Assembly: GCA_022425745.1 (NCBI GenBank)
Contig: JAKMEW010000402.1
Span: forward strand, 1-45,985
DNA: 45,985 nt
Source of the DNA: Rubripirellula sp.
GTDB lineage: Bacteria; Planctomycetota; Planctomycetia; Pirellulales; Pirellulaceae
Direction: 5' to 3'
The notes beneath the pieces were generated by a model. It saw only the letters and a program-made list of their open reading frames with translations. It ran no database searches and was not told where the DNA came from. The position numbers were made by a program, and so were the translations under genes. Positions 27,825-36,170 of the stretch are shown here, piece by piece. Every line of letters begins with the position of its first letter. The first letter of the stretch is position 1.

Positions 27825-29264
27825 ATGGACACGCGGCAAATAGTAAGAACATCGATCGATCGCACACGGCGGCAGCTGTTTCATGATTGCGGCATAGGTA
27901 TTGGAAAGATTGCCTTGAGTAGCCTGTTAGCCAATCGAGCCATTGGTGCTGAGACAAGACGCAGCGAGACGAAGAAAACCGGCCTCCATCATCCAGCGAG
28001 AGCGAAACGAGTTATCTATCTGTTCATGGCTGGTGCACCAAGTCAGCTTGATTTATTTGACTTCAAGCCGAAACTGCGGCAGCTTGAAGGTCGCCCCATT
28101 CCCCCATCGGTGATTGACGGTCAAAGATATGCCTTTATTCAGCCCGATGCCGCAGTCCTCGCTCCTCAATTCAACTTTCAACGCCATGGGCAATCCCGAG
28201 CAGAAATTTCAGAAGCACTCCCCCACCTCGCGAAGGTAGTCGACGACATCACGCTACTGAAAGCAGTCCACACCGATCAGTTCAATCACTCACCAGCGCA
28301 GCTTTTCATCAATACAGGGAGCGGTATACCCGGTCGGCCATCGATGGGATCTTGGTTGAGCTACGGTCTTGGCAACGAAAGTGAAGACCTACCAGCTTTT
28401 GTGGTTTTGAAGAGTGGCGGGAGTCTTTCTGGTGGCTCCGCAATGTGGAGCAATGGTTTCCTACCTGGGGAACATCAGGGAGTTCCGTTTAGAAGCAATG
28501 GCGACCCAATCCTGCACGTTGCGACTCCAGATGGAATCAGCCCGTCGGAGCAGAGGCGAACCATTGACTTTATCAATGCAATGAATCGCCACCAACAAGG
28601 CAATTCTGACCTGCAATCGATTCAAACAAGAATTGAATCGTATGAGATGGCATATCGTATGCAGAGTCGTGCCCCCGAATTAATGGATCTATCAAGCGAG
28701 AACACCGAGACCCTTCAACAGTACGGCATCAAGACAAACGACGGCGGATCTTTTGCCAAGAACTGCCTTCTGGCGCGACGCCTTGCTGAACGTGGTGTGC
28801 GATTTGTTCAGGTTTACCATTCAGGGTGGGACCACCACAGCAATGTTAAACAAGGGATCCAACGGCAGTGCCAACAAACGGACCAAGCGTGCGCCGCCCT
28901 CCTCACCGATCTAAAGCAACGCGGGATGCTCGAAGATACTCTTGTCGTGTGGGGTGGAGAATTTGGTAGAACTCCCATGGTGGAAGCGAGTGCTGCATTG
29001 GGACGTAACAAAGGGCGAGACCATCACCCCCAAGCCTTTTCAATGTGGCTTGCGGGCGGAGGCATCAAAAATGGACAAACCATTGGAAAAACGGATGAAC
29101 TCGGCTTTCACCCCACTGAAGACTCAATCCATGTCCATGACCTTCAAGCTACGATCCTTCATCAACTTGGAATCGACCACGAACGCCTCACATTTCGGCA
29201 TACTGGTAGAAACTTTCGACTTACCGACGTTCACGGCAAAGTGATTCGTCAGTTGATCGGTTAA
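27825..29264 (+). CDS. DUF1501 family protein (solitary copy)
   Basis: A 479-residue DUF1501 protein, a member of the alkaline phosphatase/sulfatase-like superfamily by fold. The N-terminus has a degenerate twin-arginine pattern (RTRRQLFHDCGIGIGKIALSSLLA), which suggests folded export. Family blocks are RVIYLFMAGAPSQLDLFDFKP, FVQVYHSGWDHHSN, DTLVVWGGEFGRTPM and GRDHHPQAFSMWLAGGG; the histidine/aspartate residues in these blocks are the likely metal ligands. Function is unproven; it is predicted to be secreted. It is unusual in lacking the neighbouring DUF1549/DUF1553 gene that normally accompanies DUF1501, and moaA follows 126 bases downstream. ATG 27825. Confidence 0.9.
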   Translation: MDTRQIVRTSIDRTRRQLFHDCGIGIGKIALSSLLANRAIGAETRRSETKKTGLHHPARAKRVIYLFMAGAPSQLDLFDFKPKLRQLEGRPIPPSVIDGQRYAFIQPDAAVLAPQFNFQRHGQSRAEISEALPHLAKVVDDITLLKAVHTDQFNHSPAQLFINTGSGIPGRPSMGSWLSYGLGNESEDLPAFVVLKSGGSLSGGSAMWSNGFLPGEHQGVPFRSNGDPILHVATPDGISPSEQRRTIDFINAMNRHQQGNSDLQSIQTRIESYEMAYRMQSRAPELMDLSSENTETLQQYGIKTNDGGSFAKNCLLARRLAERGVRFVQVYHSGWDHHSNVKQGIQRQCQQTDQACAALLTDLKQRGMLEDTLVVWGGEFGRTPMVEASAALGRNKGRDHHPQAFSMWLAGGGIKNGQTIGKTDELGFHPTEDSIHVHDLQATILHQLGIDHERLTFRHTGRNFRLTDVHGKVIRQLIG

Positions 29265-29390: not shown

Positions 29391-30416
29391 ATGGTATATC
29401 ACGAGGAAAATCGACTATCGCCACCAAGGCATCCGCTAATTGATCGCTATGGACGCACGCATACCAGCTTAAGAATCAGCGTGACAGACCGCTGCAACAT
29501 CCGTTGCACTTACTGCATGCCGGAGCTTGATCCGATTTTTTTCTCAAGATCTGAACTGCTGACATTTGAAGAAATCACGCGAATATCGACTTTACTGGTC
29601 AATCATTGTGGTGTCGAAGACATTCGCATTACCGGCGGGGAACCATTGGTCAGGAAAGATCTGCATGTACTGATTGAACGCCTATCCGCCATCCGCAATC
29701 TAAAGGATCTTTCACTTACCACCAACGGTCTTCTGCTGAAAAATCATGCACACAACTTGATGAAAGCAGGCCTGAAACGGATCAACATCAGCCTCGATAC
29801 GCTCTCTGAAGAGGTCTTTAAAAATCTCACTCGGCGCACAGGACTAAAGAATACGTTGGAAGGAATCGAATCCGCAATTGAGACGGGATTCAAAAATATC
29901 AAGTTAAATGCATTAGCAATCCGAGGGATCACTGAAAAAGAAATATGCGACCTTATCGAATATGCATCATCCAAAGGGCTATTGATCCGATTCATCGAAT
30001 ACATGCCTCTTGATTCTGATAAAAATTGGAAACGCGGAGACGTGCTCAATGGAGATGAAATTCTTAAAACACTCGCTCATCACTTTGGGGTCGTTAGAAA
30101 GATTCCGAGACCAGACGCATCACAGCCAGCAGAAGATTTTCTCGTTGGCGATCACAAGGTAGGAATCATTCGTTCGGTAACCAAACCATTTTGCGACCAA
30201 TGCAATCGAATGAGAATTACGGCGGACGGAGCGATTAGAAATTGCCTGTTTTCGAACAAAGAGGTGAGCTTCAAAACTCCCATGCGCGAAGGGGCTACAG
30301 ATCACGAATTACTTGAACTATTCGCGACTTGCATCTCAACCAAAGAAAAGTCACATGGGATCAGTAATGAAGCATTCCAGCCGCCCGATCGACCCATGTA
30401 TGCAATTGGTGGATGA
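29391..30416 (+). CDS. moaA: GTP 3',8-cyclase MoaA (molybdenum cofactor biosynthesis)
   Basis: A 341-residue radical SAM enzyme that converts GTP to 3',8-cyclo-GTP, the first step of molybdopterin synthesis. The N-terminal cluster motif is C35-x3-C39-x2-C42 (RCNIRCTYCMP), with ITGGEPLVRKD and LSLTTNGLLL nearby. The C-terminal second [4Fe-4S] site is FCDQCNRMRITADGAIRNC. The protein ends in the di-glycine (YAIGG) needed for MoaA activity in characterised members. Full length and apparently active. No other moa, moe or mog gene lies in the window. ATG 29391. It is convergent with the sigma/anti-sigma operon, 36 bases apart. Confidence 0.96.
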   Translation: MVYHEENRLSPPRHPLIDRYGRTHTSLRISVTDRCNIRCTYCMPELDPIFFSRSELLTFEEITRISTLLVNHCGVEDIRITGGEPLVRKDLHVLIERLSAIRNLKDLSLTTNGLLLKNHAHNLMKAGLKRINISLDTLSEEVFKNLTRRTGLKNTLEGIESAIETGFKNIKLNALAIRGITEKEICDLIEYASSKGLLIRFIEYMPLDSDKNWKRGDVLNGDEILKTLAHHFGVVRKIPRPDASQPAEDFLVGDHKVGIIRSVTKPFCDQCNRMRITADGAIRNCLFSNKEVSFKTPMREGATDHELLELFATCISTKEKSHGISNEAFQPPDRPMYAIGG

Positions 30417-30421
30417 CGTTC

Positions 30422-30460
30422 GACCCTGGTTTCCAAACTCCACTCACACGTTTCAGGGTC
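30422..30460. terminator. Weak hairpin between convergent moaA and the sigma operon
   Basis: GACCCTG (30422-30428) and CAGGGTC (30454-30460) form a 7-bp stem with a 25-base loop in the 36-base convergent gap, reaching into the stop of the minus-strand gene. It could serve as a shared 3' end. No T-tract on either side. Confidence 0.25.
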
Positions 30461-32369
30461 TAAGCATCCACCAAACTCGTTGCAAAAGTAGATTTTGATC
30501 TTCAACCGTTTCTTTATCCATCATCTGAACAACATCTGCGACTTCTTTTGGTAACTCATAAAGATCAGCCAAGTATGCTAGATGATCAACTCGACTATCT
30601 TGACTCTGGATCAGTCGTAACCATTGTACGGGGAGCGTATCACTGGCAGTGGGGAAATCATCGTCGAGAAATGTGGCAGTTGTATTGCGGTTCGCTTTGG
30701 GCGGCTTTCCCGTTGAGTTGTCTGCCTGCGCCACAAAGGCGGGGTTCCCAGAATTTAACGTTGTCCCCATGGATCTAGTAACCTGATCAACACGCCGCTT
30801 CACCGAAAGTCGCTTTTTGATTGGCAAGGATGCAGCAAACGCATTAATGGCGTGAATTGCTTCCGCACGGGATCGTGAACTTGCGACTACTTGGCCGTCA
30901 TCATTGAGTGCTTCAGGAACAGCTCTTCTGGCGACAGGTGTACCAATGATCAATGCTAAAGATCGCGAAATATTGAAATCAGATTCCATTAAATCGCTTA
31001 CAAGGCGATCTTGGATTCCATCGAGAACCGCATCATGAGGCGCCGTCACGGGGTCAACAACTCTGCCTTCCAACGGCATGCCATACACCAATTCCCAAAG
31101 TGAATTCACAACTCCATTTGCAAGCGATCTTGATCCCGATAGAGCATCGGCCCATTCTTTAACAGACCTAACTGGCTGGCCGTCAGATGTGGCTAACCAT
31201 CGACTAGAAACTGAGGGATCTGCGATGCGTTGGCGTCCGTCGAGCAGTTCATAAAAGATGGGCTTGGCGGACTGACTCTGGTTAGCATCTGGAATCTCTG
31301 AGACAGACTGAGTTGTAAAACTGGATTTGAGCAAGGCAGCAAACCCCCAGTAATCGGCTTGTCTGCCCGTTCCCTCGATCTTTGAATCGTGGCAACGAAT
31401 GCATCGTAGATCCACGTTCATTGTGAGTTTTGCGAGATGATTGACTGTTGAAACTCGTCCAACTGAACCAAACGCTTGATGAAACGCAGCAGATCGTGGA
31501 TTTTGACCCTCGATCCAACTGAGCAAAGTACGATCCAACGATCTCTCGCCCTCGATACACTTGGCAAGTTCGTTCACAAGAGACACGAGATCATCTTCTT
31601 CCAATCTCCCTAGTCCGCCATTCGTCATTTGACGAAGCCAAGCAGTTGCTAATTGCTTGGCACTGGGCGTCTGGGCTAGATAAGTCTGCATGGTTTCTGG
31701 GTCGAGAAGCATTTCCGAAGGGATCTTCAAATCCAGTCGACTAAACAGTCGATCAGCAGCTTCGGGTAAAGGCACCTCGCCGGTGGGTGTCACCCCAACG
31801 GATTCCCAGTACTCCATCAATTCCTGATTGAGCTTGCTGGAAACAAGATTAACCTCTGCTAGGACCGCGTCTTCCGGAACAGGGACGCCATTTGCCTCGT
31901 TAGAGTTACGCCCCTTTGTGTCACTTCCAGCTTCAACCAACATTGGAATCCCGCGCAACGGACGCTTGGGATTCGACTTGTTGCCGTGAGACTGCTGAGG
32001 CTTTTTCGGAACACTCTCTACGACTTCGATCAACTCAGGTGATGGTGGATCAATCGCGACCTGCGAATCAATGACTGCTTCATTGTTGGAAGGATTACGA
32101 GCTAAGAACCACAGCAGGCTGGCCGCAACCGCTGCCAACACACCAAGCCTTCGCAAATGCCTAACAAAACGCTTTCCTGAACGATCCGTTCGGGCAATCG
32201 TTTCAATCGAGAAACCGGCGACAGCGTCTTGGTCAACAAGCGTTTCGCGACCTGACTCCAATCGCTCCATAACAACACCGCTAAGATCCGGCGGGTTGAA
32301 TCCACCCACCGTCTCAGAAAGCAGGGCATCAAATGCTTGTTCGTCGATTATTTTGGACTCATTTTTCAT
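30453..32369 (-). CDS. Putative membrane anti-sigma/receptor with a DUF1549/DUF1553-like outer domain
   Basis: A 638-residue single-pass membrane protein. Residues 1-73 are predicted cytosolic (DEQAFDALLSETVGGFNPPDL), TM at about 74-90 (LGVLAAVAASLLWFLA), a Pro/Ser-rich linker to about 175, then a DUF1549/DUF1553-like module. The module resemblance is visible: VTPTGEVPLPEAADRLF versus the IPTGAELDEFL of the 34329 gene, a CIRCH site (C323, C326, H327) where that protein has CTQCHNHP, and NSLWELVYGMPLEGRVVD.. versus NRMWSMFLGYGFTKPVDD. The start ATG 32369 overlaps the sigma gene by 11 bases (ATGAAAAATGA), the normal place of an anti-sigma factor. No zinc-finger anti-sigma motif was found. The regulatory role is inferred from position and topology. 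Confidence 0.75.
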   Translation of the reverse strand: MKNESKIIDEQAFDALLSETVGGFNPPDLSGVVMERLESGRETLVDQDAVAGFSIETIARTDRSGKRFVRHLRRLGVLAAVAASLLWFLARNPSNNEAVIDSQVAIDPPSPELIEVVESVPKKPQQSHGNKSNPKRPLRGIPMLVEAGSDTKGRNSNEANGVPVPEDAVLAEVNLVSSKLNQELMEYWESVGVTPTGEVPLPEAADRLFSRLDLKIPSEMLLDPETMQTYLAQTPSAKQLATAWLRQMTNGGLGRLEEDDLVSLVNELAKCIEGERSLDRTLLSWIEGQNPRSAAFHQAFGSVGRVSTVNHLAKLTMNVDLRCIRCHDSKIEGTGRQADYWGFAALLKSSFTTQSVSEIPDANQSQSAKPIFYELLDGRQRIADPSVSSRWLATSDGQPVRSVKEWADALSGSRSLANGVVNSLWELVYGMPLEGRVVDPVTAPHDAVLDGIQDRLVSDLMESDFNISRSLALIIGTPVARRAVPEALNDDGQVVASSRSRAEAIHAINAFAASLPIKKRLSVKRRVDQVTRSMGTTLNSGNPAFVAQADNSTGKPPKANRNTTATFLDDDFPTASDTLPVQWLRLIQSQDSRVDHLAYLADLYELPKEVADVVQMMDKETVEDQNLLLQRVWWMLRP

Positions 32370-33000
32370 GACGGTCCCGCTTTAAAGTCACCTCAACACA
32401 CTCTCGCAGTTGCTGTTTCGCTCTTTGCATCAGATTTCTTGCGCCGTGCTCACTAATACTCAGTGCTTCGGCAATTTCAGCTCGACTCGAGTTTCTGCCG
32501 AATCTCATCCTCAACGATAAACGCGCCCGCTCAGTTAGCTCGTTGAGGCACTGGCGTAGGGCATCAATAGCCTTATCACCACTAAGATCCTTACCTGCCC
32601 AGCGATTCCAAGCCTGGTCAATCATCTGCGCGTCTGGAACGTTCTTAACTCGTCCCATTTTCCTGTGAAGCGACACCAGCAGGTGATAGGCGGTCCTTCG
32701 CAAATAACTTGACGTCGCTGTGTGACTCACCTGCTTAAAATCTTGGCTACGCAACACCTTCAAAAAGGTTTCTTGTGTCAAGTCATCTGCGGTGGCGGTG
32801 TCACAACCCAGCATCCGTAAATACCGCCAAACACCATGCTGGTGCTTCGCAACAAGCTCAGATGGAGACAACACGGCATCTTGAGCCACGGCACTATCAA
32901 GCGATTCACCGTAGCCCTCTGCGTTAACACTTAACCCGTCGCGTTCGTTGGAGTTTCCGCTCAAGATCTCAAACGAGTTCGCTAATGATTTTTCCACCAC
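32359..33000 (-). CDS. ECF-type RNA polymerase sigma factor
   Basis: A 213-residue ECF sigma factor. Region 2 is LVAKHQHGVWRYLRMLGCDTATADDLTQETFLKVLRSQ, with the canonical DDLTQETFLKV core-binding helix, and region 4 is ELTERARLSLRMRFGRNSSRAEIAEALSISEHGARNLMQRAKQQL with its helix-turn-helix. About 45 extra N-terminal residues precede region 2. The start is GTG 33000 or the adjacent GTG 32997, both inside the last codons of the DUF1501 gene, so translation is coupled to it; a start further in is possible. It is followed with overlap by a membrane protein that is probably its anti-sigma factor. It may direct its own operon. Confidence 0.92.
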   Translation of the reverse strand: MVEKSLANSFEILSGNSNERDGLSVNAEGYGESLDSAVAQDAVLSPSELVAKHQHGVWRYLRMLGCDTATADDLTQETFLKVLRSQDFKQVSHTATSSYLRRTAYHLLVSLHRKMGRVKNVPDAQMIDQAWNRWAGKDLSGDKAIDALRQCLNELTERARLSLRMRFGRNSSRAEIAEALSISEHGARNLMQRAKQQLRECVEVTLKRDRHEK

Positions 33001-34240
33001 CAGCGATCTTCATAGGCCGGCCGTTCTTGCTAGTGAAAGTCTTCTCAGTTGAGATTCCAAGACCTTTGCAAACGGTTGTCATCAGATCTTCACTACTGAA
33101 TGGCTCGGTATCGACAGCAGTACCATCGCTGTTTGTCGCACCGACAGCCAATCCACCTTTCAAATCTCCACCACCAACAACGCATGACCAAGCACGAGCA
33201 AAATGGTCACGTCCGGCATTCTGATTAATTCGAGGTGTGCGGCCAAATTCGCCCATCCAAATCACAACCGTGTCTTTGAGCAATTCACGCTGCTCAAGAT
33301 CCTCTACCAACGCGCTCATTGCACGATCTAGTTGTGGCAGCTTGTTATCTTTGAGAATGGTATGGATACCGTTGTGATTATCCCACCCACCAAGGTCCAC
33401 CTCGACAAATGGCACTCCAGCTTCAACCAGTCGCCTCGCGAGCAAGCAGCCCTGACCAAAACCATCCGTTCCGTATCGCTCCTTAACTTCTTCTGGTTCT
33501 TTTTCAACTCGGAAGGCTTCCATCTGCGAACTGGTCATCAGATCGAACGTCTTCTTCAGAACCTTGGCGTGTTCGTACGCCGGAACGTCACGTGTCCTTT
33601 TCGCAAAGCCCGTCTCGATCATCTCAAGCGCGTACATACGCTCGCGAAGTCGGCTATCCTCGAGTTTCATTTCGAGGTTTCTGATCCGACCGTTACTGGT
33701 AACCGAAAACGGTGCCCAGGACATTCCCAAGAAACCTGGGCCAGCACTTGCACCACCGATTGATACGAAAGGCGGAATCTCAAGCTCAGGTCGCTGCTCA
33801 AGCGTTTCATGAGCAATCACCGAACCATAACTTGGATGCTCAATATTTGGGTTTGGAACGTATCCGGTGTGCATGTAATAGCGGCCACGATTATGGTCCG
33901 CTTCACGTGTCGACATACTACGCACTACAGACAGGTTATGCATCTGCTGCGCGACCATTGGCATATGCTCACAAATCTGCAAATCACCGCTGGTTGAAAT
34001 CGGTCGGAATGGCCCGCCGGTGGCTGCTCCCGGCTTAAGATCCCAAATATCAATGGTTGCAGGACCACCACCCATCCACAGCAAAATGGCAGATTTGTGA
34101 TTCTTCTTTAGCTCTTCCGCATTCGCGTAAATCGCATTACCCATCGTCATCGATGCGGTCACCGCAGCGGATGAGCCCGCGAGGTGCTGCATGAAGTGCC
34201 GACGAGTCATTCCTGCTGGAGTCTGCCAATTCGTTGTCAT
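32969..34240 (-). CDS. DUF1501 family protein, Tat-exported
   Basis: A 423-residue DUF1501 protein with a twin-arginine signal (MTRRHFMQHLAGSSAAVTASMTM). Blocks of the family are SAILLWMGGGPATIDIWDLKP, VEVDLGGWDNHNG, DTVVIWMGEFGRTPRI and AGRDHFARAWSCVVGGG, with conserved His/Asp residues expected to bind metal in an alkaline-phosphatase-like fold. The protein is complete. It follows the DUF1549/DUF1553 gene by 88 bases, the usual pairing in planctomycetes, and its end overlaps the sigma factor start by 32 bases. The biochemical role of the pair is not known; polymer degradation or surface redox chemistry has been guessed for relatives. Confidence 0.92.
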   Translation of the reverse strand: MTTNWQTPAGMTRRHFMQHLAGSSAAVTASMTMGNAIYANAEELKKNHKSAILLWMGGGPATIDIWDLKPGAATGGPFRPISTSGDLQICEHMPMVAQQMHNLSVVRSMSTREADHNRGRYYMHTGYVPNPNIEHPSYGSVIAHETLEQRPELEIPPFVSIGGASAGPGFLGMSWAPFSVTSNGRIRNLEMKLEDSRLRERMYALEMIETGFAKRTRDVPAYEHAKVLKKTFDLMTSSQMEAFRVEKEPEEVKERYGTDGFGQGCLLARRLVEAGVPFVEVDLGGWDNHNGIHTILKDNKLPQLDRAMSALVEDLEQRELLKDTVVIWMGEFGRTPRINQNAGRDHFARAWSCVVGGGDLKGGLAVGATNSDGTAVDTEPFSSEDLMTTVCKGLGISTEKTFTSKNGRPMKIAGGGKIISELV

Positions 34241-34328
34241 TTTTGAACCTATCGGTTTGGAGTGGCGTGGTTTGCTGATATTGCTGTTTTAGAAGTTCTT
34301 GTGTTCCGGGTGTCTCTAAGTCGATGGA

Positions 34329-35972
34329 CTAGTGCTGCATGATGAACTCATTACTGTTCAGGATCGCCCACCACATGTCCTGCAACATTTCTTTTTCATC
34401 GCCACCTCGAGAACGAAGCAGGGCGGATGCCACCTTCTTTTCGTTCACACTTGGTCGCCTCGCTAGGCCATTCATGAAAAGATAATTCAGCCGATCAACG
34501 GGACTCTTTCCAGATGAAGCCAAGCGATCAATGTAAGTTCCTCGTCCTGTATCAGTTGCCTTCTTTGTCAAATCGCCGTTGAAAAGCATCAACGCTTGTG
34601 GAATCGATCCATTGAAGGTCGTTGCCTCGTCGCCTTCATCTGTACCAAAGGCCACAACGAACTGACTCAGCCAACGACGACGCTCTTGTTCCTGCTGCTC
34701 GTAGGAACCACTCGATGCAGCATCAGTTGCTGTGAGCATCGATTGATAAAGTTGCTCTGCACTCATCTGTCGCAGATAGAAGCGAGAAAACTTAGGCATC
34801 TCGCCGATCGAAGGATCATCGATTTCGTTAGCGCTTCCCAAGACAGGAGACAATCCATAGGGCCTGCTGAGTGTAATCCAAGTGATTAACTGCTTGAGAT
34901 CATAACTACTTCCTCGGAACGCCTTGCCTAACTCGTCAAGCAACTCTGGGTGAGAAGCAGGATTGTGAGGCCCTAAGTCATCAACCGGTTTCGTAAACCC
35001 ATAGCCCAAGAACATCGACCACATTCGATTAACAACCATTTTATCGAGATACTCACTGTCGAGCATCAAACGTGCAAGTTCGTCACGACGATTAACATCA
35101 CTAACAAACCCGCTCTTTGGAATTTCAGTTCCATCGGTGAAAACCGGATATGCCACCTTCGTCAGACCATTTCGAAGTTCGTAGAAGATCAATGCGTCAT
35201 CGGCTTGGTTAGCTTCACCTGCAAAGTCCTGATCAATCAACTCCGCATGATCGATGTCGCGAGTTCCATCAACAAATCGACGAAGAGAACGCGTCTGCCG
35301 GAAGAACGAATTGAACTCCCAGAACATCTGCTGCTTCCACTGATTGAACGGATGGTTATGGCACTGCGTACATTGAACCTGTTGACCAAGGAAGATTCTT
35401 GAGGTGCTACTGGTCGCTAAAACCGCCTTTTCTTCGTTCACCTTATCAACCAAGAAGTTAACCGCACCGTTGAAGTTTTCGGTGCCAGGTTTGGTTGAAC
35501 CCGTTGCTGTGACCAACTCACGGACGATCGTGTCGTACGGCTTATTTCGAGCAAACGAGTCACGGAGGTACTTCTGCATTCCATCACGCGAGATCATTGA
35601 CCGTCGATCATTTCCACCACTGCGGCCAATCAAGATGTTGGTCCAAATGGTTGCCCAATGCCCGGCGTATTCTTCGGTGTAGCGGTCATCATGAAGCAGT
35701 CTCTCTACGAGTTCGCGACGCCGGTCGTAGCGAGAACCTTCGAGAAACTCATCTAATTCAGCGCCAGTAGGAATCCGACCAATGATGTCGAGAAAGGCGC
35801 GACGGCACCATTGCTCGTCTTCAGCAACCGCTGCCGGCTTGATCTCAAAATTTTCCCAACCCTGCTCGATCATCTGATCGATCATCGCCACCTGTGCTGG
35901 ATGCGATGAATCCGCAGCACGAGAGGAAAGGGGAAGAAATGCGACGAGAGCGATCAGTGTAAATCGGCTCAT
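34329..35972 (-). CDS. Secreted DUF1549/DUF1553 protein
   Basis: A 547-residue protein with a short signal peptide (SRFTLIALVAFLPLSSRA). The DUF1549 domain (about 28-235) has WCRRAFLDIIGRIPTGAE, AGHWATIWTNILIG and the cysteine-histidine motif CTQCHNHPFNQW (C201, C204, H205). The DUF1553 domain (about 275-530) has RRDELARLMLDSEYLDKMVVNRMWSMFLGYGF, DDLGPHNPASHPELLDELG and LNYLFMNGLARRPSVNEKK. The CxxCH sequence could bind haem or metal; this has not been shown for the family as far as I know. First gene of a probable four-gene operon with DUF1501, sigma factor and anti-sigma-like genes. The start is ATG 35972. Confidence 0.92.
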   Translation of the reverse strand: MSRFTLIALVAFLPLSSRAADSSHPAQVAMIDQMIEQGWENFEIKPAAVAEDEQWCRRAFLDIIGRIPTGAELDEFLEGSRYDRRRELVERLLHDDRYTEEYAGHWATIWTNILIGRSGGNDRRSMISRDGMQKYLRDSFARNKPYDTIVRELVTATGSTKPGTENFNGAVNFLVDKVNEEKAVLATSSTSRIFLGQQVQCTQCHNHPFNQWKQQMFWEFNSFFRQTRSLRRFVDGTRDIDHAELIDQDFAGEANQADDALIFYELRNGLTKVAYPVFTDGTEIPKSGFVSDVNRRDELARLMLDSEYLDKMVVNRMWSMFLGYGFTKPVDDLGPHNPASHPELLDELGKAFRGSSYDLKQLITWITLSRPYGLSPVLGSANEIDDPSIGEMPKFSRFYLRQMSAEQLYQSMLTATDAASSGSYEQQEQERRRWLSQFVVAFGTDEGDEATTFNGSIPQALMLFNGDLTKKATDTGRGTYIDRLASSGKSPVDRLNYLFMNGLARRPSVNEKKVASALLRSRGGDEKEMLQDMWWAILNSNEFIMQH

Positions 35973-36170
35973 TACGTAGCGTCCTTAGTGAGGAGAGAGC
36001 AAGAAAAAGGCTTTTGAAGAGCTTTCACGGAGAGAAACGCACTCGGATTCGAAACGTACTCAATTGTATGTCGGCTTTTCATTGTATTCGAGTAAAACTC
36101 ACCACAGAAAGCCCGAACGGTTCACGATTCCAGTCCTTCCTGAATCGGATGATCGCTATCTTCCCACCAC
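35973..36170. promoter_or_regulatory. Upstream region of the DUF1549-sigma operon
   Basis: A 198-base non-coding region expected to contain the operon promoter on the minus strand. Small ORFs here (36014, 36064) show no domain. A purine-rich AAGGA is 10-15 bases from ATG 35972. No promoter elements could be assigned by eye. Confidence 0.3.

Follow-up and report, generated by a model that had tools for sequence, protein, structure and literature searches.

Why should a pair of genes so common in planctomycetes carry, at one locus, a sigma factor and a membrane protein of its own, and what would that protein sense? The locus in question, a row of four genes that we call g1 to g4, lies on a metagenome contig of a Rubripirellula-like member of the Pirellulaceae. 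The window, by which we mean the whole stretch of DNA analysed, is the complete contig (C94, 45,985 nucleotides) from a genome of 5.06 Mb that is 93% complete. The first two genes encode a DUF1549/DUF1553 and a DUF1501 protein, families that are very numerous in planctomycete genomes and for which, to our knowledge, no function is known; g3 encodes an extracytoplasmic function (ECF) sigma factor, and g4 a membrane protein whose outer part is a degenerate copy of g1. The answer that we favour is that the locus is probably an autoregulated homeostat, built from an ECF sigma factor and an anti-sigma factor and using a pseudo-paralogue of g1 as its sensor. The four genes are:

34329-35972, minus strand: g1, 547 amino acids, predicted exported DUF1549 (PSCyt2)/DUF1553 (PSD1) protein with a signal peptide and the motif CTQCH
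32969-34240, minus strand: g2, 423 amino acids, DUF1501 protein with a twin-arginine signal
32359-33000, minus strand: g3, 213 amino acids from a GTG start, ECF sigma factor
30453-32369, minus strand: g4, 638 amino acids, predicted membrane anti-sigma factor

Families and gene order

The first question is whether the four genes belong together. All of them lie on one strand where an earlier note on this DNA had placed them. In Pfam, g1 matches PSCyt2/DUF1549 (161.6 bits, 3e-47) and PSD1/DUF1553 (91.9 bits, 5e-26) and g2 matches DUF1501 (355.4 bits, 6e-106), each above the gathering score. The CTQCH motif of g1 corresponds to C201/C204/H205, and D62 and Y372 are both present. Because g1 has a signal peptide and g2 a conserved twin-arginine signal (R13 and R14 are invariant among orthologues), both proteins should be exported. 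The sigma factor g3 has sigma70 regions 2 and 4 only (PF04542, 38.3 bits, and PF08281, 38.6 bits, above the cut-off), with region 3 below its cut-off, and its best NCBIfam match, TIGR02989 (Rhodopirellula/Verrucomicrobium), also stays below the cut-off (84.1 vs 124.55 bits). At L042/L064 the ECF frame is split into two overlapping open reading frames, by a frameshift or an assembly error, and is intact in the near relative L044. A sequence search of the PDB finds no relative of g1 or g2, and Foldseek with the AlphaFold models of g4 and g1 gives no match below E 0.001. Part of g1 has a weak fold resemblance to the phycobilisome linker (Foldseek probability up to 0.77), on which we do not rely, and a PF00427 match (E 6e-4) occurs in one of the fused proteins described below (L200).

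The genes g3 and g4 overlap by 11 bases, as the earlier note had it, and overlap or near-contact of the two is kept in relatives (as a 4-nucleotide ATGA overlap in 19 of 50 loci). The 32-base overlap reported for g2 and g3 is valid only with the GTG start at 33000; since an alternative TTG start at 32964 lies just past the g2 stop codon, translational coupling of these two genes is likely but not certain. The gap between g1 and g2 is 88 bases long, and no terminator-like site is found in it on the minus strand.

The four-gene order is identical in 21 of 21 relatives from the genus and family whose contigs reach all four genes (L044 and L052, cut by contig ends, are outside this count), and because it is the same in every such relative it is more than chance. 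Scanning named genomes with the g2 alignment gives 80 Pirellulaceae loci (Rubripirellula, Rhodopirellula, Stieleria, Neorhodopirellula, Mariniblastus and others), in 67 of which g2 is followed by the ECF gene, while two have the order ECF-sensor-g2. Orthologues of g4 are present throughout the genus, and some of the family's other genera have them too; a scan of genome contigs with the g4 protein alone gives no matches, g4 being too divergent, and the orthologues were found instead by whole-genome search and the g2 alignment scan. Identity to the nearest relative is 99.5% for g2, 98% for g1, 85% for g3 and 69% for g4, and the mean column identity over orthologues is 87% for g2 (17 orthologues), 79% for g1 and 40% for g4.

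The N-terminal domain of g4

The next question is whether g4 may be an anti-sigma factor. Its parts are:

32244-32363, minus strand: N-terminal domain (match to profile A4), helices at residues 4-21 and 30-40 around PPDL, predicted sigma-binding segment
32103-32153, minus strand: transmembrane helix, residues 73-89, with basic residues (RSGKRFVRHLRR) just before it
30462-31853, minus strand: ectodomain, residues 173-636, degenerate DUF1549/DUF1553 paralogue of g1
31389-31403, minus strand: CIRCH (CxxCH) motif, residues 323-327, invariant in the orthologue alignment

In the AlphaFold model the two N-terminal helices, split by a PPD turn, are followed by the single transmembrane helix, a disordered linker and a helical ectodomain. 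The confidence (predicted local distance difference test, pLDDT) is above 90 over most of the ectodomain and low, about 50-67, in the two N-terminal helices. A cytosolic N-terminus is favoured because of the basic residues that precede the transmembrane helix, and the predicted topology is a cytosolic N-terminal segment, one membrane crossing and an extracytoplasmic domain.

Residues 1-40 follow the consensus D..hD..L.E.hGG..PPDLs..Il..h (alignment A4), which we call the N-motif. It is present once per genome, in g4, among the first six genus and family genomes searched. More widely, 141 of 298 Pirellulales genomes have it, as do 35 of 294 from Planctomycetota, with up to 13 copies per genome. 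Of the 40 loci fetched outside the family, 39 have an ECF gene upstream of the one that encodes the N-motif protein. The two genes nearly always touch or overlap (exceptions are L197, about 0.7 kb off, and L236, which starts at a contig end), and the ectodomains are VWA/YfbK, FecR, EF-hand, LRR or DUF1549. The N-motif is likely to be a general planctomycete anti-sigma domain lacking a Pfam entry, and with high confidence we regard g3 and g4, on the evidence of sequence and gene order, as a sigma/anti-sigma pair.

Two side observations concern the same motif. PPDL N-motifs stand on ECF-linked membrane proteins with varied ectodomains in other classes (L217-L235) and in G395. Some sensors (L079, G142, G180, G236, G268, G285, G291 and G295) have a tandem double N-motif and might bind two sigma factors.

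A candidate promoter

Is there an element from which g3 could transcribe its own operon? Upstream of g1 we find:

36036-36061, minus strand: candidate ECF promoter with GAGTAC (36061-36056) and CGTT (36039-36036), the g1 start codon lying 63 nucleotides on
36081-36086, minus strand: TACAAT/TAGAAT element, conserved at genus level

The upstream regions of g1 have GRGTACRT-N14/15-CGTT in common, and the spacer sequence varies freely between the invariant boxes. The strict element occurs in 43 of 91 loci, versus 0.065 in shuffles, and a relaxed form, RGTAC-N16/17-CG[TC]T, in 47 of the 55 loci with a contiguous ECF gene, where 0.21 are expected; in loci without an ECF gene the relaxed form is found in 4 of 10 (Fisher p 0.005, kinship uncorrected). 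The element tracks the ECF transcription unit, for it lies upstream of the ECF gene where ECF gene and sensor form a separate unit and also in the three-gene loci described below. The operon is very likely autoregulated from this RGTAC/CGTT element. Of the earlier note's proposal of a dedicated and autoregulated sigma/anti-sigma switch, what now stands is that the switch is built into the operon and conserved across the Pirellulaceae, with a conserved candidate promoter of the ECF type in front. The TACAAT/TAGAAT element is possibly a housekeeping -10 element that would give basal expression.

The element is seen at other places as well. In one Rubripirellula subclade (L276-L279, L284, L285; L280-L283), GGGTACAT-N14-CGTT stands shortly upstream of genes for a PSCyt1-DUF2231 cytochrome and a VWA membrane protein. 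The cytochrome gene is without the element in the window's own lineage and elsewhere in the genus, and a wider regulon is not claimed for the window's organism. The window's own genome has a further strict copy (L275, C375:7671-7696), located where another gene for an ECF-type sigma factor begins; immediately upstream of that gene lies one whose product is a sigma factor with regions 1.2 to 4.

The ectodomain of g4

What, then, would the outer part of g4 recognise? Its sole Pfam match is to PSCyt2 at residues 303-349 and is sub-threshold (23.4 vs 29.8 bits), and DUF1553 gives none. Residues 180-636 nevertheless align end to end with g1 (22% identity, 8e-07), and intermediates exist, since in some other Pirellulaceae the fourth-gene ectodomains reach about 500 bits against the g1 profile and pass Pfam for both DUF1549 and DUF1553. 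The full-length alignment and the intermediates establish the homology of g4 and g1 despite the sub-threshold Pfam score.

In other Pirellulales families the two proteins are one. A fused protein, with N-motif, transmembrane helix and complete DUF1549/1553, stands directly behind the ECF gene with no separate g1 in the locus; the three-gene order is ECF gene, fusion, DUF1501 gene. The DUF1501 gene follows in L126, L200, L202 and L203, is not nearby in L199, L201 and L213, and is cut in L214. The tree groups the free g1 proteins in a single clade (Shimodaira-Hasegawa-like approximate likelihood ratio test 99) beside the fusions and places the sensors outside it on long branches, the deep branches being uncertain. 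Between the window and L034 the tree distance is 0.13 for g1 and 1.14 for g4, so that the sensor copy evolves about 9-fold faster.

The losses in this fast copy are selective. Sensors of the window's clade keep on average 25% of the 135 columns that are nearly invariant in g1 and the fusions, and CxxCH is retained in 73 of 74 sensors. The only sensor without the motif is L112:9947-12058. D62 and Y372 are both found in 31 of 31 g1 proteins, in 7 and 8 of 9 fusions respectively and in 4 of 5 other paralogues (with a gap or F in the fifth), and in none of 41 sensors, these counts being of sequences and not of independent events. The exception among the fusions, L104, groups with the sensors. Such a pattern is consistent with a pseudo-enzyme in which a binding or cofactor site has been preserved, and we infer that D62 and Y372 are catalytic. 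We lean towards reading the g4 ectodomain as a pseudo-paralogue that senses something g1 also binds. That the switch senses the DUF1549/DUF1501 machinery or its substrate, as had been suggested from the sequence at first sight, becomes considerably more likely once three findings are taken into account: g4 and g1 are paralogues, fused versions occur in three-gene loci, and the sensors have lost D62 and Y372.

Proposed mechanism and its rivals

In the mechanism that we propose, the N-terminal 40 residues of g4 (helix-PPDL-helix) would hold g3 at the membrane, and the periplasmic part, a copy of g1 that is putatively retired from catalysis but has its CxxCH site kept, would register a redox state, or a ligand or partner with which g1 also deals. 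The simplest signal would be free DUF1501 protein g2, or the substrate handled by g1; g2 is our preferred guess for the sensed partner, because DUF1549 and DUF1501 genes are so often neighbours. On the signal g4 would release g3, probably by a conformational change or regulated proteolysis, and g3 would transcribe the operon from GAGTAC-N16-CGTT, giving more g1, g2, sigma and anti-sigma factor. The new g1 and g2 would use up the signal, and the loop would close. A more specific version, which we hold only tentatively, is that the retired duplicate acts as a decoy, competing with g1 for g2 or for the substrate and reading the g1:g2 balance or the free substrate. If this is true, the three-gene fusions would be ancestral, the effector itself being the anti-sigma factor, and a duplication would then have split effector and sensor.

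Several observations weigh against the homeostat. A sequence search of PDB chains detects no homology between the N-motif and the anti-sigma factors of solved structure. The promoter element is absent from 8 of the 55 contiguous loci, and its motif was defined on the genus set and then extended, which means that the first 20 loci provide no independent support for it. In 22 genomes of the genus there are 80 strict matches versus 59 in the reversed control, an excess of about 1 per genome; with the matches barely above the control, any regulon beyond the operon is small or below resolution. The losses of D62 and Y372 may be one or two events and not 41. Finally, one observation that the earlier note named as speaking against its reading, relatives without the four-gene order, does occur: about 11 of the 80 named loci have g1-g2 without an adjoining ECF gene (some of these contigs are cut). 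On this last point the notion that the ECF gene was lost in some relatives is rejected, because in 4 of the 5 genomes searched that have such a locus the ECF/sensor module sits elsewhere in the genome. In three of those four (L074, L092 and L096) g1 retains the promoter element, as expected of regulation in trans. The four-gene order is not obligatory, yet the link of the module to g1-g2 survives.

The strongest rival to the homeostat, although we consider it rather unlikely, is redox or heme sensing at CxxCH: the motif itself would read putative heme attachment, iron or heme supply or the periplasmic thiol state, the likeness to g1 would tell only of the origin of a borrowed domain, and the operon would be a redox or heme-stress response. 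CxxCH is indeed among the few strictly kept features of the fast-evolving ectodomain, and in the subclade mentioned above a cytochrome c gene (PSCyt1-DUF2231) has the same element at a similar distance with a diverged spacer; but that gene is without the element in the window's lineage, and W188, R207, Q337, W341 and G430 are conserved in the sensors about as well as that motif, which may therefore serve a structural role. Somewhat less probable again is an ordinary envelope-stress pair, in which g4 would sense misfolding or membrane damage and g1 and g2 would merely be two outputs. ECF pairs commonly answer to such stress, and in Rhodopirellula baltica heat, cold and salt induce an ECF gene, RB10049, whose neighbour RB10051 is a DUF1549 gene (PMC2754498). 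However, RB10049 is more likely a different locus, the regulon seems largely confined to the operon, and the g4 ectodomain is homologous to an output protein. Very improbable is a third rival, in which g4 works beside g1/g2 in the membrane as a structural component or an enzyme and follows the ECF gene by chance: no recognised anti-sigma domain is found in it in Pfam, NCBIfam or PDB sequence searches, but the N-motif tracks ECF genes across Planctomycetota as the ectodomain changes, FecR included, and g4 overlaps the ECF gene translationally.

Relation to known systems

The closest counterpart in design is RsgI6/SigI6 of Clostridium thermocellum, where the outer part of RsgI6 is a GH10 domain of very low activity, which binds xylan and shares 57% identity with a xylanase of the regulon (PMC4711584). 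Both systems have an autoregulated membrane anti-sigma factor (in g4, a predicted one) with an outer domain homologous to products of its own regulon, enzymes in the case of RsgI6. The clostridial system, however, has a sigma factor of the SigI type without sigma4, belongs to a Gram-positive organism and combines a glycosidase ectodomain with unlinked targets, whereas here the ectodomain is a DUF1549/1553 copy and the target lies in the same operon. The present pair is not a member of RsgI/SigI, as g3 has sigma4 and g4 is without a match to the RsgI N-domain in Pfam.

In class II anti-sigma factors such as CnrY, the partner of CnrH, two helices grip sigma4 and sigma2 (PMC7406223). A short two-helix cytosolic segment, predicted in g4 at low pLDDT, and a single transmembrane helix are the likeness; sequence similarity of CnrY to g4 is not detected. 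CnrYXH is a metal-responsive system that lacks an enzyme-like ectodomain. The g4 segment is not of class I (ASDI/ZAS) either, having 72 residues, no cysteine and no Pfam match, while that class is defined by a domain of about 100 residues, often with Hx3Cx2C (PMC7406223). FecR-type anti-sigma factors are likewise ECF-linked membrane regulators, and some planctomycete N-motif proteins have FecR ectodomains; g4 is without a FecR domain.

Among planctomycete DUF1549/DUF1553-DUF1501 pairs, g1 and g2 are clear members, and what sets them apart is the sensor: the window's own genome has 57 DUF1549 matches over the cut-off, and most copies are without an N-motif sensor. For R. baltica, RB10049 was proposed as the regulator of the neighbouring DUF1549/DUF1553 gene RB10051, and the accessible part of that report describes no sensor paralogue, promoter or fusion (PMC2754498). 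RB10049 is unlikely to be the g3 orthologue (217 amino acids vs no more than 194 codons in the open reading frame), and a pair of ECF and DUF1549 neighbours that fits better lies elsewhere in R. europaea. Searches of an open-access library, which leaves aside the main planctomycete ECF surveys (under subscription), find no description of the g4 family, the N-motif, the fusions or the promoter; the N-terminus of g4 is a domain previously unlabelled.

Neighbouring genes

The upstream neighbours of the operon are usually rpe and a histidine phosphatase gene, and downstream there are often moaA and a second DUF1501 gene. In the window this second, ordinary DUF1501 gene (27825-29264, plus strand) lies beside moaA (29391-30416) and is convergent with the operon, a position conserved across much of the genus.

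Significance

With a sensor, a switch and a promoter to itself, this g1-g2 copy offers a way into the function of the DUF1549/DUF1501 families, as the signal that induces the operon would point to the role of the pair. The locus gives a candidate promoter sequence for g3, which is testable, and it defines a short ECF-linked N-terminal domain across Planctomycetota that is likely to be a class of anti-sigma domain. Taken together, the fused and the split forms hint at an effector that turned into its own sensor. The bacterium, it appears, sets how much of this machinery it makes by sensing with a duplicate of the machinery that has been retired.

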